Source: Eucommia ulmoides
Taxonomy: Eukaryota; Streptophyta; Magnoliopsida; Garryales; Eucommiaceae
Direction of reading: 5' to 3'
Assembly (NCBI GenBank): GCA_016647705.1
Contig: CM028336.1
Span: 11,726,880 to 11,790,879 of the forward strand
Length of the DNA: 64,000 nt
The notes beneath the pieces are model-generated. The model was not told the DNA's origin. It did no database searches and saw only the letters and a list, made by a program, of their open reading frames with translations. The number at the start of each line of letters is the position of its first letter. Position 1 is the stretch's first letter. Made by a program: the position numbers and the translations under genes. Shown piece after piece: positions 5,611 through 55,360 of this stretch.

Positions 5611-5615
5611 AGTTT

Positions 5616-5634
5616 TGGGCGCCGTTGCTGGGGA
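5616..5634 (+). other. Primer-binding site, Athila type
   Basis: TGGGCGCCGTTGCTGGGGA directly follows the LTR. It matches the TGGCGCCGTTGCCGGGGA primer site typical of Athila elements apart from an extra G and one substitution. Confidence 0.75.
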
Positions 5635-5806
5635 TTGTGTTTTAAATTGTTGTTGATATTGTGAGTAAATAACTTGATTTTAATTTAGGCATTTCTTTTG
5701 TTTATAACTTTTTTGTTTGTAGTGTTGTTTTTAGTTTTTCATGTAGGGTACTTGAAGATGCTAGATCAACAAGAATTGTTGTATTTTTTTCAACGAGATT
5801 CCGAGC

Positions 5807-6671
5807 TTGGGATCGAGACAAAGAGTTGTTGTTCCGGTTCCCCAATCATCATTTCCTAAGGGAGTGTCAACTACTGAACTTCCTCGACAGGTTATTAGCC
5901 GCAACCAGAACATGGGTGGAAAGAGGAAATGGTATCACCTCTTTCGACTAACTAACCGCGGACGAAGCGTATTGATTGTTGGAAAGCATGGCGGAGTATG
6001 ATTTTTACTATTGGAATTATTCAACAAGTTACCAAAGCTTGGGGGATAGTTCCACCGTTTCGGTGCCATGGATTGATATCCTGGACCAAAACGTGGAGTT
6101 TTTCCTCACCCTAGAGAAAATATTTGCTGATTTTATTGGGGAGACTCAGGCATTCTAGAGGGAGACGAATGACTGGATCAATGAGCATGAAAATTGTCTT
6201 CACAACATTGAGATGATTTGCACTAAAATTGATGAGACCGTAAAGTCCCTAGAGACTTAAATCGGTCAGCTTATTTGCTTTATTGAGGCCAAGTCAAAGA
6301 CGGTGTCAATGAGAGATGAATGAGCCGCATTCGAATGTGAAAGCAATCGAGAAGAACCGGAGACGAGTGGAATGAGCTTGGGTAAGTGCAATAGCGACGA
6401 ATCGAATGAGACAGAAACCCAAGCATGGATCAACGATTGTGATTCGTTACCATTAGAGATCCAAATTGTGATGCCACCGTCGATCCCAGACGATCACATC
6501 TACGAGGATCCGATGTGGCTCACTTATTCTTCACCGCCATTAGCAACGTTCTTTCATGCCCACCAAGTACATGAGCCAGTGGAGAGTCGAGTTGAAAGCT
6601 CAAGCCGAATAATGCCAAATCTCGCCAATCTTGAGGGCGTAGTGAATCAAGACCCATACGTAGTGTTGTAA
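5807..6671 (+). pseudogene. Degenerate gag remnant of an Athila-like element
   Basis: Three short + strand frames (5807-6001, 5976-6158, 6372-6671) succeed one another in the region where gag is expected after the primer site. Around 6225-6290 the translation reads KSLET, a stop, then IGQL. This fits the 'NLETQIGQL' phrase that I know from Athila-type Gag, although the resemblance is short. Past the last frame, at about 6718-6755, comes GGGCCGAGGACAATAAACCA, a non-coding marker that recurs at 11510-11550 in the better preserved element. No protease, reverse transcriptase or integrase is present, so the element cannot move on its own. The internal region 5635-6762 is short and broken by stops and frame changes. 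Confidence 0.5.
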
Positions 6672-6762
6672 GACACTTACTATAGGCAGAACTCGCTCTT
6701 TGACAAACACTTATCCATGTCGGGCCGAGGACAATAAACCACGCGATTCTTGGGAGATAACT

Positions 6763-7553
6763 GATAGGTGTGATCTACCTATATATTTCCAAATCGGTTT
6801 GGTTAGTTTTAGAGTATTTTTTATAGTATTTTATTACGTTTTAATTTGTTTTTATTCTTTTTGTATAAATCAGGTGTGTAAGGTGAAAATGTATGAAAAC
6901 GGAGTATAAATGATCAGATCGAACCAAGAACGGTTGAAGAACGGTGGAAAAACGAGCAAAGAGGTAATATTCTAAAAAAGAAACCCACCATCGCAGCGGT
7001 GAAAATGTAGAGAGGGCCAATTCTTACTGGACATCCACTGCCGTAACGGTGAGATCCACTGTCGCGGTGGTGAAACTGCAGGATGGTCCTTGAATCTATC
7101 GCTTTCTTTATCACCTAGATGACCACTTAACCGATATATTCCACCGCCACGGCGATCACCTCTGTACAGATTTAGATATTTTTTGAGATATTTTCTCTAT
7201 TTAATCCCCTCTCATCTTCACTCATTTAAGGACCTCTGGCCATTAGAGCCCTTAGAGCTTAGTTTAGAATAGAGAGAGGGTATGGGGAGTGCTCAAACAA
7301 ATCTGAAGGAGATAATTACCATGCGGAGAAGGAGAAGCGATTGATGGATGGTTTTAGCGGCTAATCTTCGGACTACGGCTAAGTTCATCTGTTTTTCCTT
7401 TTATTTCTTAACTTCAATAATTGTTTGAGCATGTTTAGCTTGGTTTTCAATGTATAAACGGTTATAACCACGAGTTAAAGGTGGATTATCTATGGGATTA
7501 ATATTATTTATAAAAACGTAGTTTTGTTTGAGTTTTTGTTTCTTTAATGATTA
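6763..7553 (+). mobile_element. Athila-like LTR fragment (copy B), 5' part only
   Basis: TGATAGGTGTGATCTACC at 6763 repeats the LTR start seen at 3588, 9369 and 13116. The segment follows the LTR layout (GC palindromes at about 6985-7160, GATATTTTTTGAGATATTTT, leader, TTCGGACTACGGCTAAG). At about 7553 it joins internal sequence instead of finishing the LTR. This looks like a recombination or deletion junction. Confidence 0.6.
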
Positions 7554-8825
7554 TTCATCTGGGCCATTACCCGATAATGAAATTACCCCCTAGTTGTTTT
7601 TCGAGGTCAAGGGTAATGCCCATTCATGTGTCTTTTGTGTGCTTGATAATGTCGTTTTGGCGAAAGTTATTGTGGATCCTAATTTGCACGAGCACATAAA
7701 CTCAATGTATAGCTATTAAATTGATTTGAGGACGATTATCAATTAGCCAAACTCATGACAATTTAAGGATTGTAGAACCTGATTGAGGGGAAACTTGAGG
7801 TGAAATCCTAGGCGAGGTAGTTCGGGAGACGTGATTTAGGCATTCATTTGATTCGCTTGAGCCTTTGAAGCTTACCATGTAATATGTTTATCCCTCGTTA
7901 CCCTATCGAAACCTATAATGCCGTTTCAATTATGAACACATAACAAATACCCTGGCCAATTGAATGTTTTCCAAACCTAAATCGCTAAGCCAAAGGCACA
8001 ATTTAAGTGAATCAAGTTAGCATTCGTTATGTTACTTGAAGTGAGCAGTTGGGTTTAAGGCGAACTTTTCATTAGTTCGGTATTCGAGTACTCACTTATC
8101 ATTTTTCTTTCGTTTTAACCACACTCATGAAATTGTAAGAATCAAATAAGTTTGGGGGTGTGGTACTCGTTAAAGAAAAAAAAAATATAAATATAGTTAA
8201 ATTTTTGTTTCTTTTGACAAGTGAGTACGTCGGTCTAAAATGATTGTTCAGAGTTGTTTCCAATTTATCTATGGGGGTTTGAGAGTGATTAAGTGACAAG
8301 TGTTGTGCCTTGGGTATCGTTAAGTTAACAACGTTAACCCGTTTTATATTTCCGATATACCCTTGGCCAAATGTTCCAAACCGAACCAAGTCCTTTTGAT
8401 CTTTATGAATTGCTTAGCCTATATTAGTGGAGAGTGGAACTCAATCAGGCGTATGGATATCCTAATCCTTTATGGTATAAGTTATGAGTTTCGTTGGTGG
8501 ATAATCCAATCCGGACGTTGGATAGTTGTATAATTGAGTTTCGCACACGCACGTTGAAAGGATTTAGAATGGCATTTACCATTATTGAATGTTGAAATTC
8601 TAGAACATCACATGGTACATTTTACCACCGGAACTCGATATGATTGGGAGTTGTTGAGGGAAAAATATTTTGGTGGATAGAAGAATTCAAAACTCGCATA
8701 TCGTTATGTTTAGATTATTTGTGTTTAGGTTGTTCATGTTATTTAATTTAGTTGTGTTTTTCATTTTAGTGTGGGTGTTTTGCCCGAGGTCTAGTAAAAT
8801 TCCAAGTTTGGGGGCACAAACGATT
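7554..8825 (+). mobile_element. Athila-like internal region, non-coding 3' half
   Basis: From TTCATCTGGGCCATTACCCG the sequence runs collinear with 11830-13110 of the complete element, sharing GGTAATGCCCAT, GAGGGGAAACTTGAGG, GGTTTAAGGCGAAC and AAGTTTGGGGGTGTG. It ends at a polypurine-like tract, AAGTTTGGGGG (8805-8815). The expected 3' LTR is missing after that tract. No open frame with recognisable domains is present. Confidence 0.6.
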
Positions 8826-9368
8826 GAGAACAACCGAGAAGATCCAGAGAAGAAGAATAAGGTATTTGTTTATGGAAAGACCACTTCCCTGAACTAGGTA
8901 TGTTTCTTGATGATCCTTTGAACTTGTCTTAAATATGGTATTTTTTCTTGTGCATAGAATTTTCATATAGTTTTCATACTTAAATTTCATATACATAACA
9001 TATATAACATATAATCAAGTAAAAAACATTGAAACTATGTTAAATTCATCAAACCATGTCAAAACTATCTAAGATCATGTCAAGAACATCAAGAACGTCT
9101 AATAACATGTTAAGAACATGTGAGGACCAAAAATATCCAAGAACATATGAGGATCATATACAAAACATCTATCACACCATGAGTTCTGTATAGTCTCCGT
9201 GATTCTCTCATAAACACATCAAACCAAACTCTATTAACTATTAATCTAACCATATACTATTAAATAGCTGACTTTATATTACAGCTAAATGTCAAGATCA
9301 CAATGTAGCACTACGTCTTCAGGCTCATGGATTGGCACCTATATATATATATACACACATTGCGTCGT
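8826..9368. other. Spacer without recognised gene
   Basis: The stretch is AT-rich. At 9050-9180 there is a loose run of AAGAACATGT/CATGTCAAGAAC-like words, and at about 9340-9360 a TA/CA microsatellite. Nothing codes convincingly. Confidence 0.5.
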
Positions 9369-11098
9369 TGATAGGTGTAAATTACCTACGTATTTTCAAT
9401 CCAAATTAAATTAGTTTTCGAGTATTTATATAGTATTTTATTATGTTTTAATTAGTTTTCATACTTTTTATATAAATCAGGTGTGTAAGGCAAAATGATA
9501 GGAAACTGAAGCAAAAACGATGAGATCGAACCAAAGCGGTTCGAAATTACGGTGGATAAACAAGCTCGGAGGCTAAAAGATGAAACAGGCCCACCACCTA
9601 GGCATCCAGACCACCGCCTAGGCCGTGAAGAAGTTGAGAAAAGAGAAAAATGTTACTAACGGACGATCTCCTAGGCGTTTTCCTAGGCGGAAATCCAGCA
9701 GAAGACGAAGTTAAGCTATTGACAGTCGTTCGCCTAGGTGAAGTTTTCTTCGCCTAGGCGCAAATCCAAAAAAATGTTCTCCCAGTCCACCGCCTACTTC
9801 ACCGCATAGGCGGTCAGTCGAACCGACCTAACTCTGCCTAGGCACAATTTTCTTAGCCTAGGCGGATTTTCCCTGCACAGTCTTGAGATATTTTTAGATA
9901 TTTTTAGGATATTTTGGCTATAAATACCCCATCTCCTCCCCCTTGGCCAAACTCTCTCTTGTCCCCTTGGATTTTTTAGCCCCTTAGGCTATATATAAGG
10001 GTATATTAAGTAGTTTTATAGGTGGAGCTCACATCTCGAAGTGGAGAAGACGGCGAATTGATCGTAGAGCGTTCTTAGCGGTTTATCTTCGGACGAGGCT
10101 AAGTTCTTCGATTGTTTTTCCTTATTTCTTCTTTATCTTAGGATCATGTGAGTAAGTTTAGCTCGTTATTTTATTGTATATGCGGCTATGGCCTCGAGTT
10201 AAATATGGATTGTAGTAAGGATTAACAATAAATTTATAAATACGTTGTTTGGATGATTTCGGTGTTGCATTTATGTTTGTTCTTCATAGTTTGATTGTAT
10301 TTATCGTATTGTTTGTTTATTATGCTTGGATTGATAAATATAGAATACGAGGTTTTGACAAACCCCGTATTCAGATTAGGGTAAACAAACGCCACGATTC
10401 TATAACCCGGTCAGGGTTTGAATCGTGGACAATCGATGACATGGGGCAAGACACAAGCTACCTAGGGTCGTTAAGACATCGAGGGGGACTTTTTCGTTGA
10501 CTCGAAGTTGCATTATATCCCTCGTCTTACACTCGGGAGAGGTGACGAGGGAGTTTTAGAACAGAGATTGTCGATAGGGTAAATACAACGCGACGATCCA
10601 ATAACCTGGGAGGGAGTTGGATTATGTGCAATCAATGACGTTGGGCGAGACTCACGTGACCTAGGGTCATTAAGACATTAAGAGGGACTTCTTCGTTAGC
10701 TCGAAGTCATGTATTCCCCCGTCTTACACTCGGGAGAGGTGGCGATGGAGTTTACGTACTGAGATTGTCAAATAGGTCGAACACTGTAAACGTGAGTAAA
10801 TCGAGATCGAACATGTATTTGTAAACACGTTAATCCATAGGTAATTCTTGACCCTAAAACATATTATCATATTAGTGTAGTTAATTTAGGTTATATTAGT
10901 ATTAGTTTAATTAATTAAATACATTTGTTTTTGCCTAGATAAAGTTAAGTCACGACAAATGCGGTATTCGATAGTAACGACACCAATCCCTGTGGATACG
11001 ATAACATGATCTTAACGATCACACTATACTAAAATTTAGACCTCGTATACTTGCAAGTGTAAGTAGTGGCATATTTCACGCCCTACCAAGTTTTTGGC
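9369..11098 (+). repeat. 5' LTR of the LARD-like element
   Basis: It starts TGATAGGTGTAAATTACC and ends CACGCCCTACCA. The TATA box GGCTATAAATACCCC lies at about 9916. Upstream, at 9590-9870, is a cluster of CCTAGG-centred palindromes (CCGCCTAGGC, CGCCTAGGCG). Downstream, at 10350-10790, a ~210-bp module with TTACACTCGGGAGAGG occurs twice. Confidence 0.8.
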
Positions 11099-11104
11099 GC
11101 CGTT

Positions 11105-11237
11105 GTCGGGGATTGTTTTGATGTTATTGTCGGAGAAACGCGGTAACGACCGGAGACTTAGGTTTTAGATAGGAGAAGCAAATGTATCGTATTCTAGTCC
11201 CTTCAATGCACCAAGTTTTTGGCGCCGTTGCCGGGGA
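11105..11237 (+). other. Two primer-binding sites 115 bp apart
   Basis: AAGTTTTTGGCGCCGTTG is present twice, so the sites TGGCGCCGTTGTCGGGGA (11105-11122) and TGGCGCCGTTGCCGGGGA (11220-11237) are both intact in form. Only the first abuts the LTR end; the second is the better match to the Athila consensus. The sequence between them is not LTR-like. Confidence 0.75.
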
Positions 11238-13115
11238 TTAGCGATTTCGTTAGTGTTGATATTGTGTGTAAATGATTTAATTTTACTTTAGGCATTTCTT
11301 TGTATATAATTTTTGTTTGTAATTTTGTTTTTGTTTTTTATACAGGGTACTTGCCGATGTTAGATCGACGGGTATTGATACATCCCTTTTGACGGGATTC
11401 CAAGCAATTTATTGTGCTTGGCCAAGCACATAAGCCGGTGAGGCGTTTTGTTGAAAGATTGAGCCATCCAAAGCAAAACCTCGCCAGTCTTGAGGGTGTT
11501 CTGAAAATGTCAGGCCGAGAACATTAAACCACGCGCTTCATGGGAGACAACCCAATCAATTCTTTTTTATCCATCCTATCCGACTTGATTCGGAGGCGAG
11601 ATCCTCTCGCCTCCCAGGTAAGTGTTCTAAACACCCTTCGTCAGCATGCTTCAATTCCATATGTTGAAGAATGATGATTGGGTTCGCTGAGGACACTGTC
11701 CATTTTGAGTTCGGAAGTGATGTGTAGTATGTAGTATTGTTAGTTTATGTGTTATTGTTTTTTCCGTATTGTATGTGTGTTTAGGTTAGAATGTGTTTAT
11801 GTTTTTGTGTTGTTATTTTCATGTTGAGTTTTGTGTTCATCTGGGTCGTCACCCGATGATGAAAATTATCCCTGGTTGTTTTCAAAGTTAAGGGTAATAC
11901 CCATACATGGGTGATTCTGTGTGCTTGACTATGTGTTTTGGTAAAAATTATTGTAGATCCTAATTTGCACGGGCACATAGACTCAATGTATTTTTATTCA
12001 ATTGATTTGAGGACGATTATCGATTAACCAAATTCATGACACATTAAGGATTCTAGAACTTGACTGAGGGGAAACTTGAGGCGAAATCCTAGGCGAGGTA
12101 GTTCAGGAGACGTGATTTAGGCATTCTCTTTGTCGCTTGAGCCTTTTTAAGCCTACCTTGTTACATGTTTATCCCTCATTACCCTGTTGAAGCCTAAATG
12201 AAAATTCAATTTTGAACACATAAACTAATACCCTGGCCAGTTGATCATTTTCCAAACCTATATCGCTGAAATTAAAGGCACATTTGAGTTAATCAAGTTA
12301 GCCATTGCAAAGGATTCATGATGTGAGTGGTTGGGTTTAAGGCGAACTTCTAATTGGTTCGGTATTTGAGTACTCACTTGTCTTTTTTCATTTGTATTTC
12401 ACACACCCCTTCAATTGTAACAATCAAATAAGTTTGGGGGTGTGTTTGTTGAAAAGAAAAGAAAAAAAAAAAAAAAGAATCAAATGTAAATACGGTTTTT
12501 ATTTCCGATTCTTTTTGACAAGTGAATACAACGGTCTTAATGCATGTTCGGGATTGTTTCCAATCTTTTTTTGGGGCTTCAAGAGTGAATGTGCCAAGCG
12601 TTAAGCCTTGGATAACGTTAAGTTAACAACGTTAACCCGTTTTGTATTCCAAATTACCCTTGGCCAAATATACCAAAACCGAACCAAGTCCTAATGATCT
12701 TCATGAACTACTAAACCTACATTAGTGGTGAGTGGACCCCAATCAAGCATATGGAAATCTTAGTCCTTCACGGTCTAAGTCATGAATTTCATTGGTGGAT
12801 AATCCAATCCGATCGTTGTATAGTTATATTATTGAGCTCGCACTAATACGTTTATGGGATCTAGAATAGCGTTCATCATTATTGCATGTCGAAATTCTAT
12901 AACAATACATGTTGTGTGTTACCGCCTGAATTCGATATAACTAGCGGTTGTTGAGGGAAAAAATAAATAGGCCGTTAGAAGAATTTAAAACTCAGATGTT
13001 GTTATGTTTAGATTGTTTTTAGGTTGTTTGTTATTTATTTCCGTTTGTTGTATTTTTTAATTTTAGTGTGTGTGTTTGGCTCGAGGACTAGCCAAATTAT
13101 GAGTTTGGGGGTATT
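11238..13115 (+). other. LARD-like internal region
   Basis: The region contains the marker CAGGCCGAGAACATTAAACC (about 11510) and GGAGACAACCC, which in Athila-type elements mark the end of the gag region. A long untranslated stretch follows and ends in the polypurine tract at 13101-13112. Small ORFs such as 12392-12604 are chance frames. The 3' half is collinear with 7554-8825. Confidence 0.6.
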
Positions 13116-14800
13116 TGATAGGTGTAAATTACCTACGTATTTTCAATCCGAATTAAGTTAGTTTTCGAGCGTTTACATAGTATTTTATTATGTTTTAATT
13201 AGTTTTCATACTTTTTGTATAAATCAGGTGTATGGGGCAAAATGATAGGAAATTGGAGCGAAAACGATAAGATCGAACCAAAGCGGTTCGAAGTTACGGT
13301 GGATAAACAAGCTCGGAGGTTAAAAGATGAAACAGGCCCACCGCTTAGGCAGTGAAGAAGCTGAGAAAAAAGAAAAATGTTACTGACAGACGACTGCCTA
13401 GGCGAAGATACTTTCGCCTAGGTAGAAATCCAGCAGAAAACGAAGATGGGCTACTGACAGCCGTTTGCCTAGACGCAAATCCAACTGAATGTTCTCCCAG
13501 TGCACCTCCTACTTCACCGCCTAGGCGGTCAGCCGAACCGACCTAACTCCACCTAGGCGCAGTTTTCTTCGCCTAGGCGGATTTCTCCTGCACAGTCTTG
13601 AGATATTTTTAGATATTTTTAGGATATTTTGGCTATAAATACCCCCTCTCCTCCCCCTTGGCCAGACTCTCTCTTGCCCCCTTGGATTTTTGAGCCCCTT
13701 AGGCTATATCTAAGGGTATATTTAGGAGTTTTGGAGGTGGAGCTCACATCCCGAAGTGGAGAAGACGGCGAAACGATCGTAGAGTGTTATTAGCGGTTTA
13801 TTTTCGGGCGAGACTAAGTTCTTCGATTGTTTTTTCTTATTTTTTTATCTTAAGATCATGTGAGCATGTTTAGCTCGTTATTTTATTGTATATGCGGCTA
13901 TGGCCTCGAGTTAAATATGGATTGTAGTAGGGATTAATAATAAATTTATAAATACGTTGTTTGGATGATTTCGGCGTTGCGTTTATGTTTGTTCTTTGTA
14001 GTTTGATTGTATTTATCGTATTTTTTGTTTATTATGCTTGGATTGATAAATGGAGAATATGAGATTTTGACAAACCCCGGATTCGGATTAGGATAAACAA
14101 ACGCCACGATTCTATAACCCGGTCGGGGTTTGAATCATGGACAATCGATGACGTGGGGTAAGACACACGCTATCTAGGGTCGTTAAGACGTTGAGGGGGA
14201 TTTCTTCGTTGAATCAAAGTTGCATTATATCCCTCGTCTTACACTCGGAAGAGGTGATAAAAGAGTTTTAGAACAGAGATTGTCGATAGGATAAATACAA
14301 CGCGACGATCCAATAACCCGGGAGGGAGTTAGATTGTGTGCAATCAATGACGCTGGGCGAGACTCACGTGACCTAGGATCGTTAAGACATTGAGGGGTAC
14401 TTCTTCGTTGGCTCGCAGTCATGTATTCCCCCGTCTTACACTTGGGAAAGGTGGCGGTGGAGTTTACGTACTGAGATTGTCAAATAGGTCAAATACCGTA
14501 AACGTGAGTAAATCGAGATCGAACACATATTTGTAAACACGTTAATCCCTAGGCAATTCTTGACCCTAAAAGATATTAGCATATTAGTGTAGTTAATTTA
14601 GGTTATATTAGTATTAGTTTAATTAATTAAATACATTTGTTTTCGCTTAGATAAAGTTAGATCACGACAAACGCGGTATTCGATAGTATCAACACCAATC
14701 CCTGTGGATACGATAACCCAATCTTAACGATCACAGTATATTAAAACTTAGACCTCATATACTTGCGAGTGTAAGTAGTGGCGTATTTCACGCCCTACCA
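13116..14800 (+). repeat. 3' LTR of the LARD-like element
   Basis: It repeats the 5' LTR from TGATAGGTGTAAATTACC through the TATA box (about 13631) to CACGCCCTACCA. The palindrome cluster lies at 13340-13585 and has fewer units than in the 5' LTR, so this is the part that differs most between the two copies. Confidence 0.8.
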
Positions 14801-15850
14801 AGTTTTTAGTCGATAGCCTTATGGCTAAAAATTCAGGATAAATGAAAGATCTCTATTCCTTCGGGGATATGTGTGCACCTTCTTCAGAAATGTTCTCCTG
14901 TTTCTTAGTTACGAGTAGGACTAGCATATATACTATGTATTTTTTTTTTCCCTTTTAACTAACAACTCAAAAACAAACACTAATTTTGTCTAAACAAATT
15001 AGTTCGGTTATCGCGTTCTTAACAAAATCAAAGAGATTATTCATGATATCATTGTATGATTTATGTCTCGTTTGAGTAATAAAATCAATTTATTTTCACC
15101 AAACAAGCTACGCGATGAACTGATCCTTGGTTATTGGCCAAGGTACATAAGCAACTCATGTACGGGTTCGATCACCTATCTAAATAAAAATCAGTTCATC
15201 TTGAACAGATGAACTATGTTTTGACTAGATTCCCCGTGATAACTAGGATACGTAGGCAACTTTTATAAGGTTCGATCGCCAAAAAAATACGAAAATATTT
15301 TCATTTCATTTACTTTTATCTGTTGTTGCTGATAGATAGTTTAATTTACCTTCTTTCATTACATAAAAATGCATAAAAAGGAAAAACAATATTAAAAATG
15401 GGAATTATTTTGTTAACTAAACCAAAAACAATTACTTGGATTTTTTTAAAAGTGAATATCTATTTAAACTGAGGTACCGTCTTCGGACGAATGTCTTGGG
15501 GTGGGTAGAACCTTCCCCGAGCATAACCGACCTCCAAATTTAAAGAAATTTCTGGTACAAGATCTTTACGAGTAAAAACATGGGTTATTTCAAAATAAAA
15601 AATGAATTTCTAAAATTTCGGTGACCTAGCACACCATTTAACCCATGCTAGGTGATGACTCATTTTCAAACATAAATCTCGGCCCAAAGAACGTTTTTAA
15701 AATCGAAGTCTAGAAAAGCCCTTGAAAATCATTTTAAAAAATGAACGGATTTGGAGGATTTCAAGAGGGATGAATGAAAACTTGTTTTTCTTTTCTTCTC
15801 GATCTCTACTTTCTCTACTTTCACAAAAATCTGGGGTGCGTCAATAATCA
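14801..15850 (-). repeat. Reverse-oriented repeat carrying the CCTACGTATC module
   Basis: Read on the minus strand, 15206-15273 gives GTTGCCTACGTATCC followed by GGGGAATCTAGTCAAAAC, and 15123-15175 gives a weaker second copy. The same module occurs four times in forward orientation at 19480-20140. The rest (15480-15850) is a decayed, probably LTR-derived segment without ORFs. Confidence 0.5.
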
Positions 15851-43645: not shown

Positions 43646-44272
43646 TGCATGTGTATGTGTGCGTGCGTGCATGCGTGTGTATCCTATAAATTACAACATA
43701 TTTACATTTTGAGACATTTTAAGCCGTTAGATCGGATATCTAACGGTTGGATTAAATCTAAACATATTTTATATTTGAGACATTTTGGATGGTTGGATCG
43801 AATATCCAACGGCTGAGATTGAATAATATTAAGAGACATTTTCAACCCTTAATTAGATTCAAAGGTTTAGAAACCTCCTTCCCCATCTTTGGTTCAACCT
43901 TCTTCCCTATCTCCCTTCCTCTTGCCGCCTCAATCTGAACACCATTAGCCATCACCTAAATCCCATGTGAAATCGCCTCCATCGCCATGTCTTCTCGCTC
44001 TAGCTTCAAGGCAACGTCAATCTCGATCGATCAATTCCCCCCATTCTGCATGCTTCTATCAATTGATGTCTGACTTTAGAGATTGCGTTTTGTTATGGAT
44101 TTTGCCCCCTTTTTTTTTCTCTCTCTTTTTCTTGCGATGTCACTCTCGACCGTGAATCTATTGCCCGCATAACCCTTAGTAAGTCTTCTTTCCCTCACTC
44201 AGGTTCTATCTCAATTTCGTCGCTTACCACACACCAATATAACTTTGAACAAATTTGTGTTTTGTTAATGTA
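43646..44272. other. Spacer with CCGTTGGAT palindromes
   Basis: A GT/GC-alternating tract lies at 43648-43680. At 43722-43820 two related palindromes occur (CCGTTAGATCGGATATCTAA and GGTTGGATCGAATATCCAAC), each after GAGACATTTT. A 63-residue ORF at 43967-44155 is serine/proline-rich and unrecognised. Confidence 0.5.
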
Positions 44273-44420
44273 TTATATGGGTTTGGCCCACGTGGCTTAT
44301 TAGAGTAACACCCTAACCCCCACTCATTCTATAAATATATGTATATTTCGTTGTATTCTTATATCTCTTTCTAATATATCAATACATTATTCATTTTCCC
44401 ACTTCTCAATCATCTTAACA
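44273..44420 (+). repeat. Copia 5' LTR and adjoining primer site
   Basis: It starts TGTTAATGTATTATATGGG and ends CATCTTAACA, with TTCTATAAATATATG as TATA region (about 44330). TAGTATCAAGAGC (44421-44433) follows, a mutated form of the TGGTATCAGAGC primer-binding site. Confidence 0.85.
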
Positions 44421-44424
44421 TAGT

Positions 44425-44992
44425 ATCAAGAGCAAGTCTTTCCTAAACCTGTTCTCCCTAAAATTTTCGCAACCCTAAAGCTTCCACCGTCGCTTTCTTT
44501 ATTCTCCCAAGACTTTCGTCGCTACTGTAGGCGTCATCCTTACTCCGATATCAACAACCACCACACATTTATCTTCGTCTTGCAACGACAAACACAACGC
44601 CACCAAACTCACCGCTACCGAATCCCAAACGCGCCCTCATGCGCCTCAAACAGTCTGCAGCACCACCACACATCGCCATCTCGAATTTTAGGCTCTACCG
44701 CACATAATATCAAGAGCAAGTCATTCCTAGACCTGTTCTCCCTAAAATTTTCGCAACCCTAAAGCTTCTACCATCGCTTTCCTTATTCTCCCGAGACTTT
44801 CATCACTTCTGTAGGCGTCATCCTTGCTCCGATATCAACAACTACCACACCATCGTCTTCGTCTTGCAAAGACGAACACAATGCCACAAAACTCACCGCT
44901 CCCGAATCCCAGACACGCCCTCACGTGCCTTAAACAGTCTACAACACCACCACACATCGCCATCTCGGATTTTGGGCTCTACCGCCTCAACC
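44425..44992 (+). repeat. 284-bp tandem duplication in the Copia leader
   Basis: ATCAAGAGCAAGTC begins at 44425 and 44709. The units share CCTGTTCTCCCTAAAATTTT, GTAGGCGTCATCCTT and CCACACATCGCCATCTC. The duplication includes the decayed primer-binding site, so that site also exists twice. Confidence 0.85.
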
Positions 44993-45429
44993 TAGGCTCC
45001 AAATCGATGTCACAATATATCATCGGAACCATCTCGACGAGATGATTCAAAAGACAAAAAAATCAAGGCATTCTGACTCTGCACACGCTGACCAAAGACA
45101 CAGCTCCAGTTCACGCGTCATATCCACGCGTTGCCTCCCCTTTATCTTCATTGGTACTTTCACGTCAACCCTAGTTGTACAGTCAGCACCTAGTCAGTAC
45201 CCACTCAGCAGCCACGTCAGCGCCATATCACTACCATGTCAGCAATTGACCCGCCACGTCATCGGTTGACTAGCCATGTTAGAGTCTAGTTAATCTCTCT
45301 TGCTACGTCAGCGATTCAACTAAGGTACTTTCGTTAGACCGATTTAGGCCTTTTTATACCGGCTTTCTGCAAACTTAGAACAGATTCTATGATTTTTCGA
45401 CGTTCTGATTCTGTTTTCAACCTCCATTT

Positions 45430-46404
45430 TGTGATTTGAGGATCACAAAACGTACTTTCTTTTATATTTTTTGTGGTTTCTACACCGGTTCACCTCACTC
45501 TTTGCGCCTATGGTTGAATCGAACTTACCCTGGGTTATTACTACTATTCTGGACGAATCTAATTATGTTGTGTAGGCTCAAGAAATGTCTAGTTTCATCC
45601 GTGAGAAAAAAAATTGTGGCATTTCGTGATTGGATATATTACTAAACCTAAGAAGAAGAACAACGAAGATGCTTCCAAATACATTGACCATCTAAAGGAT
45701 TGAGATAAAAAAGAATCACTAGATTCTCACATGGTTTTGTGCCACCGTCATTCCAAAGATCAAACTTCAATTTGGTACACTCCAGACAGCTAAAGAACTT
45801 TGGGATCTTTTCCAGCATCGCTACACCAGGGTAGACATCTCAAATTGGTATCGTCTTATTTCCACCCTTCATAGCATGCGCTAAGAACTTGGGTAATTTG
45901 TCAACAGTTTTCTATCTCAAATGACTGCCGTATGGAACCAGTTGGCTCTCACTAAGCCAGCCCTGGAATAAACAAAAGAAGCTGATGTTCATGGAAAGTA
46001 CCAATCTGAGATATGTATTATGCAATTCCTGATGGGCTTGAGAGAGGAATCTAAGCCTGTACGAGCTTCAATCCTATACTGTGGCGCGATAGCTTCCCTA
46101 AATGACGTCCTTTTTTATCTACTCAGTGAGGAAACACGTCTTGCCACATTACAAGGATCTCATACAAATGTTGCCCTTGCAACACCACTTGTTCTTTCCA
46201 TACCAGCTGCCAAGGCCAACCCATCCCAGAAGCTCTTATACTGCAAATATTATAATTCATAAGGGCATGAATTGCTTAAATGTCCTTCTCGCCTGTATAA
46301 AGTCTGTAGAGAACCTGGCCACCATCTTGCAGACTGTCCTAAACTTCTATCTGGAAATCAGTCAAATAGAAACCAACATCGTTCTCGAGACTCTCGCAAC
46401 CGAT
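45430..46404 (+). pseudogene. Copia gag relic
   Basis: Pieces of a Copia Gag are readable with stops between them: QMTAVWNQLALTKPALE, IMQFLMGLREESKPVRASIL, EETRLATLQ, then a zinc-knuckle region CKYYNS.GHELLKCP (second cysteine lost, stop at about 46261) and CREPGHHLADCPKL. The reading ends at RNRSY (46409), where the palindrome is inserted, and resumes after it at SKPKNVAAIAT (about 49305). Gag forms the particle that packages element RNA; this copy cannot. Confidence 0.75.
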
Positions 46405-49304
46405 CTTATTGATAGGTGTAAAATACCTATCTACTTCTAAATCGAATTTGGTAGTTTTCGAGTGTTTTATTTATATTTAATTGCGTTTTAGTTTGTTTTT
46501 AGTTAATTCAAGTGTAGGGATGCAAACAAGCGATAAACGAGCAAAAACGGTGAAGAAACGTTGAAGAAACAAGGTTTCAAGATCACAGAAGCCACCCCTA
46601 CGGCGAGGAAGCCACCGCCGAGGCGGTGAGAATGCAGAGGACGTGCTGAAAAATGAACAGGAACCACCGCCTAGGCGGAGAAGCGTCAGAGAGTTAGTGT
46701 ACGTTGGGGTGCTGAACTACCGCCTAGGTGGAGAAACGTCAGAAAGTTGAGAACTGTTTCACCGCCTAGGCGAAGAAACCACCGCCTAGGCAGAAAACAG
46801 TCAGAATATTTGGTTCCAGCAGCCACCGCCTAGGTAGAAAGCAAACCGACTTAATCTCCGCCTAGGCGGAGATTCTACCACCTAGTTGGTAACGCTCTGC
46901 ACAGAAATATCTTTTTTTTTAGATATTTTCAAAACCTTTACTTAAAACCTTTTCTCACCAATTGGAAGGAGGTTGTTTTGGAGACCCGTTGCACCTTCGA
47001 TAATTTAGGAGTAGAATAGATTAGTTTAGGAAGTGATCCTTGGCTAATCTTGAAGAGATCGAAGAGGAAGATTCGCATGCCGAAGAAGAACAACAATAGC
47101 GGATCGATCTCGGGCGAAAGTGGACCACTCCACTTTAAGATTTGATATTTATTTCCTTGTTCTATCGTTGTATCTTAATGTTTTAGTATGATTTCCTCTT
47201 GGTTTAATGTTCTAATGGCCAAGATCATGTTAGTTTAGTTAGATATTAGTTAGGTTTAGATGTAATTCATGTAAATACCTTTTTGGTTGAATATAAGTTA
47301 ATTTTAATGGTTTGTTATCTAATTCCAATTGTGTTTACCGTTATTTCACGTTTATTACGCTTGTTACGATAAACTAAGAATATGGGGTTTGACACTCGGG
47401 AGAGGTAACCCCGGATTCGGACTAGGGTTAAACACAACACGACGATTCAATAATCTGGGAGGGAGTTAGAGAGTGTGCAATCCATGAGGTTGGGTCAAGA
47501 CTCACATGGCTATGTGTTCGAAAAGGCGTTCGAAGGGGACTTCGACGTCAACGCGAAGTCATGTATTCGCTCACTTTTCACTCGGAAGAGGAAGGGAGTG
47601 AGTTATAGATACCGAGATTGTTGGATGAGATAATAACCATTATTGATAACTAAACTAAGCCAAATAGGTACTAAGTTAATTAGTGTAATTAGAATTAATC
47701 CTTAGGAGTAGTTTTAATTAGTTGAATTTAAATATTAAATTGAATCGTCAGGATAATATGAGATTACGTAAATTGCGGTACTCAATTAATCACACTTTCC
47801 CTGTGGACACGATACCCAATCTTAACCGATTTACTATTCTAAAACTTTGACCTCATAGTCTCATATTATCCTGACGATTCAATTTAATATTTAAATTCAA
47901 CTAATTAAAACTAATCCTAAGGATTAATTCTAATTACACTAATTAACTAGGGATCGATTTCATTCACTTAGTACCTATTTGGCTTAGTTTACTTATCAAT
48001 AATGGTTATTATCTCATCCAACAATCTCGATATCTATAACTCACTCGCTCCCTCTTCTGAGTGAAAAGTGAGCGAATACATGACTTCGCGTTGACGCCGA
48101 AGTCCCCCTCGAACGTCTTTTCGAATACATAGCCACGTGAGTTTTGACCCAATCTCATGGATTGCATACTCTCCAACTCTCTCCCAGGTTATTAGATTAT
48201 TACATTGTGTTTAACCCTAATCCGAATCCGGGGTTACCTCTCCCGAGTGTCAAATTCTGTATTCTCTGTTTATCGTAACAAGCATAATAAACGTGAAATA
48301 ATGGTAAACACAATTGGAATTGGGTAACAAACCATTAAAATTAACTTATATTCAACCAAAAAGGTATTTACATGAATTATATCTAAACCTAACTAATATC
48401 TAACTAAACTAACATGATCTTGGCCATTAGAACATTAAACCAAGAGGAAATCACACTAAAACATTAAGATACAAAGATAAAACAAGGAAAGAAAGATCAA
48501 ATCTTAAAGTGGAGTGGTCCACTTTTTCGCCGGAGATCAATCCACTATTGTTCTTCTTCTTCGGCATGTGAATCTTCCTCTTCGATCTCTTCAAGATTGG
48601 CTAAGGATCACTTCCTAAACTAATATATTCTACTCCTAAATTATTCAAGATTGGTCAAGGATCACTTCCTAAACTAATCTATTCTACTCCTAAATTATCT
48701 AAGGTGCAAGGGGTCTCCAAAACAACCTCATTCCAATTGGTGAGAAAAGGTTTTAAGTAAAGATTTTGAAAATATCTTAGAAAATATCTAAAAAAAATAT
48801 ATTTCTATGCAGAGTGTTACCGCCTAGGTGGAGGTTAAGTTGGTTTGCTTTTTGCCTAGGCGGTGGTTTCTCCGCCTAGGTAGTGGCTGCTGGCACCAAA
48901 CATTCTGACTGTTTTCCACCTAGGCAGTGGTTTCTTCGCCTAAGCGGTGAAACAGTTCTCAACTGTCTAACGCTTCTCCACCTAGGCGGTGGTTCAGCAC
49001 CCCAACATGCACCAACTCTCTAACGCTTCTCCGCCTAGGTGGTGGTTTTTGTTCATTTTTTAGCACATCCTCTGCATTCTCACTGCCTCGGCGGTGGCTT
49101 CCTTGCCGTGGCGATGGCTTATGTGATCTTAAAACCTTGTTTCTTCACAGTTTTTCTACCATTTTCGCTCGTTTATCGCTTGTTGGCATCCCTACACCTG
49201 AAGTAACTAAAAACAAACTAAAACGCAATTAAATATAAATAAAATACTCAAAAACTGCCAAATTCGGTTTAGAAGTAGATAAGTATTTTACACCTATCAC
49301 CTAT
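46405..49304. mobile_element. 2.9-kb palindrome: two Athila-type LTRs inverted around a 95-bp loop
   Basis: Left arm 46410-47763 and right arm 47859-49299 are inverted copies (about 1.35 and 1.44 kb) around a 95-bp single-copy spacer. Both outer ends read TGATAGGTGTAAAATAC, the start of the Athila-like LTRs at 3588-14800. The spacer continues the left LTR (CCCTGTGGACACGATACCC) to CCTCATA, then switches strand at TCTCATATT, sharing CTCATA. Flanks are CTTAT and CCTAT, a 4-of-5 target duplication, and removing the block restores the Copia gag frame. The right arm carries an extra ~58-bp duplication at about 48592-48706. There is no primer site, coding or polypurine tract. CCGCCTAGGCGG palindromes lie in each arm. 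Confidence 0.9.
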
Positions 49305-49433
49305 TCCAAGCCAAAGAATGTTGCTGCTATAGCTACTAATGCTACATCAACTTCATCCAACTCTCCACCTGATTGAAATGATTTTTACATTGAGCTTATC
49401 GAGGCTCTAAGTAAAACCGGTAACTATATAGCT

Positions 49434-50800
49434 ATGTCAGCTACATCAGGTACATCCCGATGGTATTTTGATTATGCATGTTGCAATCACATGACTTCTA
49501 ATGCCTCTATCTTTTCCTCTAAACCCTGTGATGAGCATGCACTTACTATTCACACTACCAATGGATCAAATATGTTGGTTAGCCATACTAGACATGTTGA
49601 CGGTTCTTATTTGTCTCTCCTTGACACATATTTGGTCCCTAATCTTACGCTTAACCTTATATCTATTGGACAATTATGTGATCTTGGACTTGGCTTACAT
49701 TTTTCTTCTACTAGTTGTCGTGTGCAGGACCCTCAGACAGGAAAACTCCTTGTAACCGGCCGTAAAGTTGGATGCCTCTTTCAGCTCATTTACCTCCAAG
49801 TCCCATCCTCACCATCACCAAACCAATTAGCCGCATCCATCCTAGCACTCTCACCCGTAGAATTGTGATACTCTTGGTTAGGTCACACTTCATACAACCG
49901 TCTACGTTCTCTTATTTCTAGTAGTTTGTTAAATTCATTTCAGCATGAGTCTTTTCATTGTATTCATTGTCAACTTGCAAAACAATCAATTTTACCTTTT
50001 AATGAAAGTCATTTTATTTTCCTTGCACCCTTTGATTTAGTACATTCTGATGTTTGGGGGCCTTCTCCTCATGCATCAATGGGTGGTGCTCGCTATTTTG
50101 TTATATTTGTGGATGACTATTCTTGTTATAAGTGGTTGTTTCTAAAAAGCAGATCTGAACCATTTTAAATATATTCTAAACTTTTTTCTATGGTTCAAAC
50201 TCAATTCTCTCGGAATATCAAAGTTTTTTGTTTTGATAATGCAATGGAATATAAAGACCGTGCTTTTTCTAAACTTACTTCACAAAAATGCCACGCTCCT
50301 CCACCGCTCGTGCCTTGGAACCTCCCAACCAAATGGATGAGCCGAACTCAAACATAGACATATTCTTGACACCGTTCATGCTCTACTCATTTCGCCATCA
50401 TGTCTTGAATGTTTCTAGGGTGATGCTTCCTTAATCGTAGTGTACACAGTCAACGGTGTCCCTTCTGCCACAATCCAAAATCAGTCCTCATTCGAGCACT
50501 TTTTCAGTAAATATCCTGATTACTCGAACTCAGAGACTTTGGTTGTGCTTGTTTTGTTATTCTCAAACCACATGAACACAATAAATTACAACCAAGGGCT
50601 CACTTGTGTTGTTTCATTGGATATGTTATTGAACATAAGGGGTATCGATGCTGGGATCTTATTTCTAAAACTCTTCGTATCTCTCATCATATCATTTTTT
50701 GGGAACATCAAATATTCTCTTCCTTACAGTCATTTGACATGTCAACCATCACTAACTCCAGATTCTTTACTGATCCATCTATTGAGTTATTTTTTAAGAA
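49434..50800 (+). pseudogene. Copia protease, GAG-pre-integrase and integrase
   Basis: SRWYFDYACCNHMTS (about 49455) is the Copia protease start, with DYA in place of the usual D(S/T)G/A. It continues with YLVPNLTLNLISIGQLCDLG, the GAG-pre-integrase YSWLGHTSYNRLRSL..CIHCQLAK, and the integrase core FDLVHSDVWGPSP with FVIFVDDYS and FDNAMEY. The region after 50270 is frameshifted until VLLFSNHMNTI and GYRCWDLISKTLRISHH. Stops at about 49868, 50166 and 50358 break it. Confidence 0.85.
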
Positions 50801-51648
50801 TTTAGTTTCAGGTACTGTTGAGTCCACCTCAGAATCACCACCTGATATCACCCCTTCCGTTTTGGAACCACCAACTTATCCTACCTCTCCAAACCTAGCT
50901 CCAACTCTAGAAGCATTAGCTGATCTCACCCCTCTGACTCAATCGGTCATGACCGAGGATATTCTTGTGTCTGATGAGTTTGCACCGACTCCCTCTGAGA
51001 GTTATCTTCCAGATCACTCTCGCAAATCTACTAGGGTAACTCTTCGCCCTTCTTATCTTGCTGATTATCATTGTTTTTCCACTATACCTCATATGTATGA
51101 GCCTCAATCCTATGAGGAGATTAATACTAATCTTCTTTGGCAGAAAGCAATGAATGAAAAACTTTAGGCCCTAGCCAAAACTCATACCTAGGATATTGTT
51201 GATCTGCCCTCTAGAAAAACTTTTATTGGGTACAAATAGGTGTTTAAGATCAAGACACTTTCTGATGGCTCTATTGAACGATATAAAGCCCGACTTGTTG
51301 CCAAGAGATTTTCTCAATAATACGACATTGACTATGAAGAGATATTTGATCCAGTGGCGAGGCTTACATATGTCCATACACTTCTTGCTGTCGTTACCAT
51401 TCGAAGATGGATTCTGTTTCAAATGGTTGTCAAAAATGTATTTCTCAATGGGGATCTTTCTGAGGAAGTTTATATGCATACCCCTCCCAGCTTGGAGACC
51501 CCTCAAAATAAAGTTTGTTACCTTCGCCGTGCCCTATATGGTTTAAAACGAGCTCCACGTGCCTAGTTTGCTAAATTCAGCACTACTAGTCATCAGTTTG
51601 GGTTTATACCAAGTGCTTATAATTCAGCACTACTAGTCATCAGTTTGG
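50604..51648 (+). pseudogene. Copia integrase tail and reverse transcriptase, truncated before the catalytic box
   Basis: The frame 50604-51167 runs from the integrase tail through a proline/serine-rich linker (PPDITPSVLEPPTYPTSPNL) to NTNLLWQKAMNEKL at the RT start. Next come IERYKARLVAKRFSQ, DPVARLTYVHTLLAV, VVKNVFLNGDLSEEVYMHTP and [16 protein letters not shown]. It breaks off after KFSTTSHQFGFIPSAYN. The YVDD active site and about 40 residues around it are missing. A 28-bp duplicate (AATTCAGCACTACTAGTCAT onward) at 51574-51601 and 51621-51648 sits at the break. Confidence 0.8.
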
Positions 51649-53291
51649 AGTATCCCCCGTGCGGGTTTAGGAATTTGCACCCAAGGTCAACTCCACGGTA
51701 ACCCAATATCCTCGGTCCTCACATGATATCATCTCAATACCCCCAGCCAGACACATTTAACACACACACACACACAATATTTCCTTTATAGTATTGGAAT
51801 TGCCCAAACTTCAACTTTTTACAACAGACCCAATTTCATTTGAAAATACATTTTCAAGTAAACACACAAGAATACATATATATAATACATGCTCAAAAAC
51901 ACATAAGAGAATGGATATGATCCCCTACCTCAAGATGTAAGTAGTCACCTAACAATCTCAAGTAATCTTATTTCAGCTCACCTAACTATTAGAAGCAAAA
52001 TTAAACATTCTCTTTATTAATATCATCACTTTATGCGCGTACCCTTGATATCCCAATATTTCTTAAGGAGATATTGCACGTGTGAGAACTATTAGGGGGA
52101 ACACTCACTCATTTTACCACTGTTTAAAATTTGTTTATGTTCTTCTTATATTTCTCTATGAAAATAGACACCCCAATCTTTAAAACTCACTTTGAATCAC
52201 CAGATTTTGATTTTTCTACATTTAGTTATGATTTTTCAAAATTCAGCAAACAAGTTTCCAAAACATTACGGGACTACATTCAGTCAACTTTCAGGGTCTG
52301 GTTTGGCATCATTTCAGGTTCAATATTCACCATATAATAGCTCAATCCTCATTGAGTCTAGTTTCGTTTTCCACAAATTTCATATTTTTTTGATTTTTCT
52401 ACGAATTGATATGAATTTTTAAAGTTAGGTTGCTGGGGGAAACAAAATGCAGAATTTGCACTTCGTAATTTTGGTTCTTTAGTTTCTTTGATACGCAACC
52501 ACGTTTTTTGCTCTTCTAAGGCTTAGAGATCATCCCAAACTATCATACAATCATTCTAATTCATCTAGAGTTCATGTACATCATAGTTTTTTCCTTAGAT
52601 TTCCTCTCTTAAAACAGAAAAATAAAAAATAAAAAATGGTTTAAGCTCCAAATCTCATGAAGAAAGTAAAAATCAGATTTTTATACATGTTTATTTTTCC
52701 AAATCTCAAGTCAAATTCGACCTAACCAACTTGTACATGACAAATTTCAATTTTAATAGGTTAGTTTTACATCTTAACCCTTAGATCCATAAGAAATCAT
52801 GTTAGAACTTCAATTGTAATTTCTAGGGTTTTTGAGACTTACCAAATATGAGTTCATCATTCCTCCAAGAATTGATTTCACCCATAGATCTCCTCAAATT
52901 CTTGATCTAAACCCACAAGCCCTTTATTCTTCTCTCTTCCTCTCTTGAACGATCTTCTCTTTCTCTTTTTTCTCCCCTCTTCTTCCCTTAGGTTCATGAA
53001 GGTTGAGATAGAAAATACAAGAAGTTGATTTTTCTTTTGTCTTCCTCCTTTTCTCTCTCTCTCACGTTTTCCACACAATGGATTTACTATACAAGATTTT
53101 TTTATACTAATTACACTAACATCCCCATATATATTATAATATTATCATCAAACCCTAAAATTATACTTGTGCTCCCAAAATTATAAAATATTCGTCTTTA
53201 CCTCAAGATTTCCAGGATATATCAAAATAATCTCAAGAATATTTAATCATAAAATATTATTTCCTGAAATATAAATTTTCGAGGTATTACA
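51649..53291 (-). mobile_element. Gypsy LTR inserted in Copia, reverse orientation
   Basis: On the minus strand it starts TGTAATACCTCGAAAATTTA at 53291, a clean LTR terminus. Copia resumes right after it with FLSGQFKMKDLSVLTYFLG. The other end lies at the damaged junction near 51649 and lacks a recognisable LTR end. A pyrimidine-rich tract (52920-53080) and a CA run (51760-51775) are inside. Short ORFs have no domain. It resembles the reverse LTR at 18123-19158. Confidence 0.6.
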
Positions 53292-54196
53292 GTTTCTCAG
53301 TGGCCAATTCAAGATGAAAGATCTTAGCGTACTAACTTATTTTCTTGGTCTCGAAGTTTCATTTGGTTATGATGGATATTTTATCTCTCAAGCTAAATAT
53401 GCCTCAGATCTCATTTCTAAGGTTGGGATCACTAACTCTACCATTGCCACTACTCCTCTCAAGTTGAACGTCGAACTTACCCAACTCGATGGTTCACATC
53501 TTTTGGAAATCGCTCTATATCTCCAACTGATTGGAAGTTTTGTATATCTTACTGTCACTCGCCCTAACATTACCTATGTCATTCATTAGGTTAGTCAGTT
53601 CTTGTTCGCTCCTTGGACCACCCATTACTCGGTTGTTATTCGTATTCTTCGGTATATCAATGATACTTTATTTCATGGGATTCATTTCTCAGTTCAGTCT
53701 GCTCCTGTCTTACAAGCTTATTTAGATGCCGACTGGGCTAGAGACCCCACCGACAGATGTTCAACCACTGGTTACTATTTCTTTTTAGGAAATTCTCTCA
53801 TTTCCTAGCATAGTAAGAAACAAATTGCGATTGCTTACTCTAGTACTGAAACTGAATATCGTGCCATGACTGATGCAACTCAAGAACTTCTCTGGTTTCA
53901 ATGGCTACTCACTGACATAAACATCTCTTCTCTTGTTGCCACTACCCTACACTGTAACAACATGAGTGTTATTCAGATCGCTCACAATGATATCTTCCAT
54001 GAGCATACAAAACACATCAAGACTGATTGTCACTTTATCTATCATTATATTCTGCAGAATATGATTCGTCTATAATCCATCAGTTCAGCCGATCAGACAG
54101 TTGACATTTTCATTGAGTCTCATCCACCCGGACGCTTTCACTCTCTGGTTTCCAAACTCAAGCTTACCTCGCACTTACCACCTTAAGTTTGAGGGG
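53292..54196 (+). pseudogene. Copia RNase H region
   Basis: It reads QFKMKDLSVLTYFLGLEVSF, SKVGITNSTIATTPLKLNVE, IGSFVYLTVTRPNITYVIH, a stop, then [60 protein letters not shown] and HTKHIKTDCHFI. The RNase H acidic residues in DADWA, STETEY and the CNN (for CDN) position can be placed; the last aspartate is changed to asparagine. Stops occur at about 53587, 53806 and 54073. The polypurine tract TTTGAGGGG precedes the 3' LTR. Confidence 0.85.
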
Positions 54197-54351
54197 TGAT
54201 AATGTATTATATGGGTTTGGCCCACGTGGTTCATTAAGGCAAAACCCTAACCCCACTCCCCCTATAAATATGTGTATATCGTTGTATTCTTGTACCTCTT
54301 TCTAATATATCAATACGTGATTCATTCTCTCATTTCTCAATCATCTTAACA
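54197..54351 (+). repeat. Copia 3' LTR
   Basis: It starts TGATAATGTATTATATGGG (first bases changed from TGTTAATG) and ends CATCTTAACA, with CCCTATAAATATGTG as TATA region. Confidence 0.85.
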
Positions 54352-55360
54352 TGTTGAATTTAACTAAATGTAACTCCAATTTTGCTAGATCTAAGTTCGA
54401 CCTGATTAAACCCATTTCTATTTTGCTATATGTGTTTTACTGTTTTTTTTTTTTTGTTGTTGTTGTTGTTGTTGTTGTTTCTATAAGCAGTTGAATGGTT
54501 GAATATGTTTCTTTTACCGTTTGATTTCTATTGTGCTCCCAGAATTTTCAAACAATTTTCTGGAAACAACTAATTTATTCCTGCATTTCTATTTCTATAG
54601 TGAGAATGTAGGGAAATCTACCATACCAAAAGAATGCATAGGTAATCCCATTTTTTCCCCCAAATCTCTAACTATCAACGTTACCCAAGTATCATTTTTG
54701 GGTTTTCTGAAAGAGCTTTCGAGTTGCTAATTATGTACTGAATTAAAAATTTGTAATTGAATTGGGTGTTTCGCGTCAAAGTTTAGCAGTCGAGTTACTA
54801 ATTTTGTACAAAATCAATTTTTTTGTTATTCAATGCAAGTTATGTTATATCTGAGAGCGACGATACTAATCTCAGATTTTGAAAATTCAAAGCATCAAAA
54901 CAAATGGGAGTTGTATAATTCTCATTTATCTCTGCTTATATTTCTTTTACCTTTTCAAGTTGAAATCTTTTTAAGACTTTCGAATAAGATCTTTCCTTTT
55001 AGCTGCATTATTTACTATGATTCATGAATTATACTATACCTAGCAATAGAAAAAAATTATATAATCCTTGAAATAAAACACTTACATATCAACTAGATGT
55101 TGATATCTTTTGTTGAACCTAATATTTTGATGAACAATTAAATGATATTTTGTGGAACTAATATTTTTATTGAGTAATTTCAGATTTAAGTTTACTATAT
55201 TTAATCGAGATGGAAAATCACCTAAGAATTTATAATGGGTGCAAAATAAAGACAATAGAGATATAAAGATTATTGAATATTGAAGACAATTAGGTAAAAA
55301 CAAATCATTGTTTTTATACTCTTAATGTAACCCGAATTAGGATCACGCACGACACTTGAA
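54352..55360. other. AT-rich spacer
   Basis: A T-run followed by (GTT)n lies at about 54440-54480. ORFs 54521-54730 and 54833-55027 are AT-rich chance frames without motifs. Confidence 0.5.

Follow-up and report, generated by a model that had tools for sequence, protein, structure and literature searches.

Our analyses have identified a 2,890 bp palindrome in a 64,000-nt stretch of Eucommia ulmoides DNA (hereafter the window; C12:11726880-11790879 of the 947-Mb, 391-contig assembly that served as the genome searched). It lies at positions 46410-49299, inside an older, broken Copia element, and consists of two LTRs of one retrotransposon family that are placed tail to tail with a U3 start at each outer tip. 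Insertion of this palindrome as a single unit is well supported, and we consider it moderately probable that it represents an inverted LTR dimer, which would have been made before integration by a strand switch within U5 and then integrated by its two U3 ends.

Structure of the Palindrome

The main components of the palindrome, and one duplication that is private to its right arm, are as follows.

46410..47766, plus strand: left arm, an LTR of 1,357 nt from its U3 start, which aligns from base 1 with the LTRs of the complete element L069 (arm alignment)
47767..47855, plus strand: loop, 89 nt of the U5 of the left LTR, without a counterpart in the right arm
47856..49299, minus strand: right arm, an inverted LTR of 1,444 nt with its U3 start at the outer tip, sister of the left arm
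48590..48697, minus strand: tandem duplication of 54 bp in two copies, right arm only, absent in 27 of the 27 other LTRs

The initial annotation of this DNA had described a 2.9-kb palindrome of inverted LTRs with a 95-bp loop and had proposed an arm alignment as a check. The palindrome is borne out by the coordinates above, the loop is shorter than was claimed (89 nt), and the alignment gives an identity between the arms of 90.3% in a simple pairwise comparison (132 mismatches and 87 gap columns) and of 92.3% across the 1,326 shared columns of the family alignment. The arms are connected by five inverted blocks of 105-564 nt each, with 88-94% identity, a degree of correspondence that plainly appears to be above chance. 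Between the two LTRs there is only the 89 nt of U5, without an internal region; the loop sequence is found in all of the other 27 aligned LTRs, at a length of 89 nt in 26 and of 84 nt in one, and is lacking in the right arm. The LTR end is truncated in both arms, with ~40 nt missing from the left and ~131 nt from the right.

A 20-bp deletion is private to the left arm and is shared by none of the 27 other LTRs, though one of them retains 17 of the 20 nt. Near 46818-46890, a minisatellite block is differently arranged in the two arms; the 10-20-nt gap states that each arm shows there are also found in other copies of the family, and we provisionally read these differences as repeat-unit slippage. 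The LTR minisatellite is composed of short CCGCCTAGGCGG units, which are near palindromic themselves (window positions 46607-46881 and 48820-49047), and the number and arrangement of these units vary both between the arms and among the copies.

The LTR Family and its Complete Member

A complete relative of the arms, L069, is present at C16:24380000-24388600. Its direct LTRs (positions 633-2195 and 6479-7948) start with TGATAGG and end with CTACCA, 5-bp target copies (GTGGG) flank the element, a PBS-like TTTTTGGCGCCGTTGCCGGGGA follows the first LTR and a PPT-like stretch precedes the second. Because L069 carries the sequence of the arms as direct repeats with TG...CA ends, target copies and a PBS-like site, the arms are LTRs of the same family; a DNA transposon with long terminal inverted repeats was rejected as a candidate because the sequence is carried there as direct LTRs. 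Both outer tips of the palindrome read TGATAGG and align with base 1 of the L069 LTRs, in agreement with the earlier claim that both are true LTR starts; both are U3 ends and neither is a U5 end. The internal region of L069 gave one match to PF20167, a "putative plant transposon protein" (three of the eight listed open pieces were scanned). We take the PBS-like TTTTTGGCGCCGTTGCCGGGGA and the PF20167 match, a gag-type trait, to be characteristic of Athila, and the family is provisionally referred to here, as in the initial annotation, as Athila-like, within the Ty3 group.

The Insertion Site in an Old Copia Element

The host element and the two copies of the target site are located as follows.

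44251..54352, plus strand: host, an old Copia element, with LTR pieces near 44251-44421 and 54185-54352 and decayed gag-pol between them
46405..46409, no strand assigned: left target-site copy CTTAT, at a site that is empty in 28 of the 29 Copia copies compared
49300..49304, no strand assigned: right target-site copy CCTAT, a 4/5 match to CTTAT, from the same empty-site comparison

The direct repeats of the host are ~9.93 kb apart and its LTR pieces share 86.8% identity along 159 nt. Seven of its 19 listed open pieces were scanned for domains, and five of these gave matches (viz. Pol_BBD, gag_pre-integrs, SH3_retrovirus, and RVT_2) at 49377-53589. The RVT_2 match is itself split (profile positions 48-128 at 51321-51566 and 186-242 at 53275-53589), and the separation of its parts by ~1.7 kb suggests another insertion in the host at 51567-53274. 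A tandem duplication of 284 bp, with 89% identity, is present just inside the 5' LTR of the host (44418-44985). Since the reading frame of the left flank has a stop as early as 46262 and pol is fragmented, restoration of the host frame upon excision, on which the initial annotation had drawn, is not a useful criterion at this locus.

Other genomic copies of the host provide a direct view of the empty site. A search with the left flank listed 39 other copies, 29 of which were fetched, and the two flanks are contiguous with zero gap in 28 of these 29, the remaining copy being off by 2 nt. The flanks thus match an empty Copia site elsewhere, a mismatch at which had been named as grounds for doubting the insertion, and the claim of a target duplication agreeing at four of five bases is confirmed by the copies CTTAT and CCTAT. 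Because the empty sites themselves read CTTAT in 8 of the 29 copies and CCTAT in 7, one of the flanking target copies has probably been mutated at one base. The exact empty site, the target copies and the two U3 tips together sustain the earlier proposal that the dimer integrated as one unit; a rearrangement of the host after an ordinary insertion is not expected to leave a U3 tip lying exactly against the right target copy.

Common Descent and Relative Age of the Arms

The two arms are sisters in a maximum-likelihood tree of 29 rows, with support of 99/96, and in a tree of 36 LTRs, with support of 100/97, where they are each other's nearest relatives. The first of these trees left out L028 and L038, which are over-long, and L012, L017, and L033, which are shorter than 1,350 nt; the second added L012, L017, and L071-L075. 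L015, L034, and L037, which are without an LTR cluster of more than 900 matched nt, were unused, and two copies of identical sequence were removed. When the LTR was divided, the 5' half alone recovered the sisterhood of the arms at 100/95; the support of 94/77 obtained from the 3' half alone falls short of significance, and there the left arm is equally close to L011 and to the right arm (a path of 0.077 each).

The K2P distance between the arms is 0.081, and the corresponding values for four direct LTR pairs are 0.090, 0.074, 0.077, and 0.067, where the status of the pair as one element is demonstrated by its ends for L069 and is deduced from spacing, orientation and sisterhood for the other three. 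The arms have 17 derived sites in common, compared with 35 and 42 private ones, and the yardstick pair has 17 compared with 43 and 51. In another comparison set the arms share 20 derived sites and the four direct LTR pairs share 24, 18, 17, and 78, the last of these pairs belonging to a more distant clade. As the arms are nearest relatives and their K2P distance falls within the range of direct LTR pairs, they probably had the same sequence when they were inserted, and these comparisons support a single source for the two. A derivation of the arms from two different parents, a first impression gained near the loop (where the right arm is ~97% and the left ~89% identical to other copies), was rejected, because the figure of 89% includes the loop and the left-private 20-bp deletion and because the alignment and the trees place the arms as sisters.

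The Junction and a Proposed Origin of the Dimer

Two short motifs at the edges of the loop are central to the proposed strand switch.

47765..47768, plus strand: TACG, putative template side in the strand switch, present as TACG in 28 of 34 other LTRs
47854..47857, plus strand: CATA, taken to be CGTA in decayed form, putative primer end in the strand switch, with the ancestral state inferred

The left LTR reads through CCTCATA (to 47857) and is then followed by the inverted right arm, GTCTCATATTATCC. The strand switch had previously been assigned to a repeated CTCATA, of which there are indeed two copies, although a 6-nt fold-back primer would have left them in a different arrangement. A CTCATA 3' end that primed on TATGAG (47757-47762) would give CCTCATATTATCC, and because this predicted product misses eight bases that are observed at the junction, the CTCATA pairing does not yield it. 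The pairing of CGTA with TACG, on the other hand, places the first copied base exactly as observed, and we infer that this 4-nt match would explain the strand switch better than CTCATA. At the primer-end position CGTA is found in 28 of the 34 other LTRs and the second base is A in 4 of them; the C16 element has CATA in one LTR and CGTA in the other, so that this base can differ between the LTRs of a single insertion. The match in the present-day sequence is TA only (2 nt), and CGTA depends on the presumed ancestral base. From the earlier suggestion that a cDNA end folded back and primed on itself, the strand switch is thus kept, with the putative CGTA/TACG match, whereas the CTCATA primer is given up. 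A hairpin formed purely in cis is closed and has one integrable end, which counts against the dimer in its simplest form and makes a second copying step, or a switch to a second molecule, necessary.

On this basis we propose that the palindrome stems from a single aberrant event, in which an Athila-like LTR retrotransposon would have inserted as two LTRs joined tail to tail, without an internal region. A plus-sense LTR strand made in reverse transcription would have run from the U3 end to a point ~40 nt before the LTR end, and its end may have paired over ~4 nt (CGTA/TACG) with LTR sequence of the same plus sense, in its own strand or in a sister copy. The annealed strand would then have been extended back to the U3 start of the template strand, and either the resulting hairpin was copied or a switch onto a sister strand took place in the same particle, the presumed product being a linear duplex whose tips are both U3 ends. 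Integrase would have inserted this duplex into the Copia element with the usual 5-bp target duplication, after which the arms would have diverged independently by ~8%, with the 54-bp duplication arising in the right arm and the 20-bp deletion in the left.

Certain steps of this proposal have experimental parallels. In PMC4668388, self-priming by the minus-strand strong-stop DNA of HIV-1 is reported, and template switches by reverse transcriptase on 2 nt are cited. For integration, PMC3579926 describes concerted products formed in vitro by RSV integrase from donors with a single (modified) U3 end; as these imply the joining of two U3 ends, such a pair of ends should present no obstacle in principle. 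In the genome searched, the whole 501-bp junction query is matched by the window locus only, among the best 40 scored candidates, which counts in favor of the dimer; on the same result, an inverted-repeat transposon family was rejected as a candidate. The points that weigh against the dimer, besides the closed hairpin, are that the ancestral base of CGTA is a reconstruction, that the sisterhood of the 3' halves is not significant and that the minisatellite at 46818-46890 is differently arranged in the two arms.

Alternative Origins

The loss of the LTR end to different lengths in the two arms also suits end joining, and it leads to an explanation which we regard as unlikely, if credible. Here two sister cDNAs would each have supplied a U3 end to a shared integration complex, and the host, in repairing the broken chromosome, would have joined their distal parts tail to tail via microhomology; had the donors been of full length, a later LTR-LTR recombination would have deleted the internal regions. 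The one-U3-end donors of RSV integrase in vitro (PMC3579926) are as compatible with this sequence of events as with the dimer, sister cDNAs of one parent would likewise yield identical arms, and the unequal losses (~40 and ~131 nt) together with a microhomology of 2-4 nt resemble the products of end joining. It requires, however, that both distal breaks lie within 131 nt of the LTR end, or that two solo-LTR recombinations followed, and a strand switch in cDNA would take fewer steps.

Two separate insertions are very improbable. A second, reversed element would have had to enter exactly at the target copy of the first, after which a central deletion took both LTR ends. Nested insertions are known in this LTR family, and an inverted neighbor at C13:20.457-20.465 Mb, which was set aside as a second palindrome, reads from its match coordinates as an element inside an older LTR; but this course of events would require that both elements hit one 5-bp target and were parent-identical copies of equal age. 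Palindromes are common artefacts of long-read libraries, but it is exceedingly improbable that this one entered the contig through a chimeric or fold-back read, since near-identical arms would be expected, whereas the observed arms, which were probably identical at insertion and have diverged since, differ by ~8% with private indels in the manner of an old LTR pair, and the empty site fits to the base.

Other Inverted Arrangements of the Family

In overlapping LTR searches, whose match lists comprised the best 40 of 5,109-15,373 candidates each, no other standalone U3-to-U3 pair was seen. An apparent mirror case with U5 ends outward, the L070 palindrome at C2:17.1158-17.1180 Mb, is not a clean unit and was set aside: PBS-like and internal sequence follows its left end, the neighboring LTR L008 has PBS-like and PPT-like flanks, and a target copy of 5-7 nt was not found between the two places compared. 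This opposite palindrome of the same LTR occupies L070 positions 2805-5048 (C2:17115804-17118047), its center lies in the CCTAGGCGG-rich part of the LTR, the K2P distance between its arms is 0.080 and further element copies adjoin it. In the 36-row tree the L070 arms and L008 form a group of three, and L012 is placed beside L008, and not beside the other arm, with weak support. L008 itself (positions 1354-2889; C2:17110029-17111564) lies between a PBS-like and a PPT-like flank, which would fit a tandem LTR-internal-LTR-internal-LTR arrangement. A further candidate at C5:41.978-41.981 Mb (L076) was set aside as a 3' LTR with a PPT-like flank adjoining older LTR pieces. Weak inverted matches of ~170-270 nt are present in L014, L021, L023, and L033, a 56-nt inverted match is found at C2:47221509, and opposite LTRs ~7 kb apart occur at C9:4.886/4.894 Mb.

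Folding and Silencing Potential

For a transcript of 46405-49304, the predicted fold has an MFE of -2148 kcal/mol, and the two arms pair with each other in 1,270 of its 1,316 base pairs. The arms have 229 distinct 24-mers perfectly in common, and 207 of these also have an exact match in one or more of the 27 other LTRs. If the palindrome is transcribed at all, the inward-facing LTR promoters would be better candidates than the host Copia, and transcription from either inward-facing U3 would cross the loop. The initial annotation had suggested that such a hairpin might supply small RNAs against Athila-like LTRs, a role that inverted-repeat loci play in maize. Such a role, which would resemble that of Mu killer against MuDR, is compatible with each of the origins considered above. 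The strong predicted folding, the shared 24-mers and the inward direction in which both U3 promoters would read make this role possible, but the host Copia is decayed and a perfect duplex would be formed by 229 of the 1,334 left-arm 24-mers. The share of C>T/G>A among the private changes of the arms (0.71) lies within the range of the four direct LTR pairs (0.62-0.75), so that there is no sign of unusual methylation-driven decay in the arms. Taken together, a working silencer at this locus is improbable. The broader notion that LTR retrotransposons regularly make and integrate inverted U3-U3 dimers, and thereby generate hairpin loci with inward promoters and small RNAs against their own family, appears hardly probable.

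Comparison with Known Systems

The palindrome resembles an ordinary LTR-retrotransposon insertion or solo LTR in its LTR family, its U3 tips, its 5-bp target duplication and its age class, which is that of the LTR pairs of the family; it differs in that its LTRs are opposed, their U5 ends are lost, an internal region is absent and two U3 ends were probably used. It is thus without the direct LTRs, PBS, internal region and PPT of a full LTR retrotransposon, and, as two truncated LTRs that extend from U3 tip to U3 tip, it falls outside the definition of a solo LTR, which is one complete U3-U5 LTR. The palindrome is an unusual product of a known process, namely reverse transcription and integration. 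Among the matches listed for the open-licence PMC literature, the titles and the starts of the abstracts do not name an integrated inverted LTR dimer.

Several systems that share some of its features are described in the literature cited here. In retroviral 2-LTR circle junctions, LTRs are also joined to each other outside the chromosome, but the join is between U5 and U3 and involves few palindromic bases (PMC1905944), whereas the join observed here is between U5 and U5 and is integrated. In HIV-1, a short cDNA similarly folds back and primes on itself; this is the minus-strand strong-stop DNA, a source of abortive products (PMC4668388), whereas the palindrome would need a strand of plus sense whose 5' end is U3, and is integrated. 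DIRS-1 also has inverted LTRs, with ORFs between them and a tyrosine recombinase (PMC5633606); the palindrome has only 89 nt of LTR between its arms and a 5-bp target duplication, which places it outside the DIRS elements. The maize Mu killer (Muk) locus is, like the palindrome, an inverted copy of a transposon sequence that is able to fold into a hairpin, and a silencing effect has been demonstrated for it (PMC2725412), whereas for the palindrome, which arose by insertion as a unit, the folding is a prediction.

This clean example of inverted LTRs inserted U3-to-U3, with its relative dating, suggests that the integration of an LTR retrotransposon can be completed in a living genome with two ends of the same kind. 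Its signature, viz. an inverted LTR pair, a single target duplication and sister arms of LTR-pair age, is offered for searches of other genomes. If such insertions are recurrent, hairpin loci of a kind comparable to Mu killer would arise from retrotransposons themselves.
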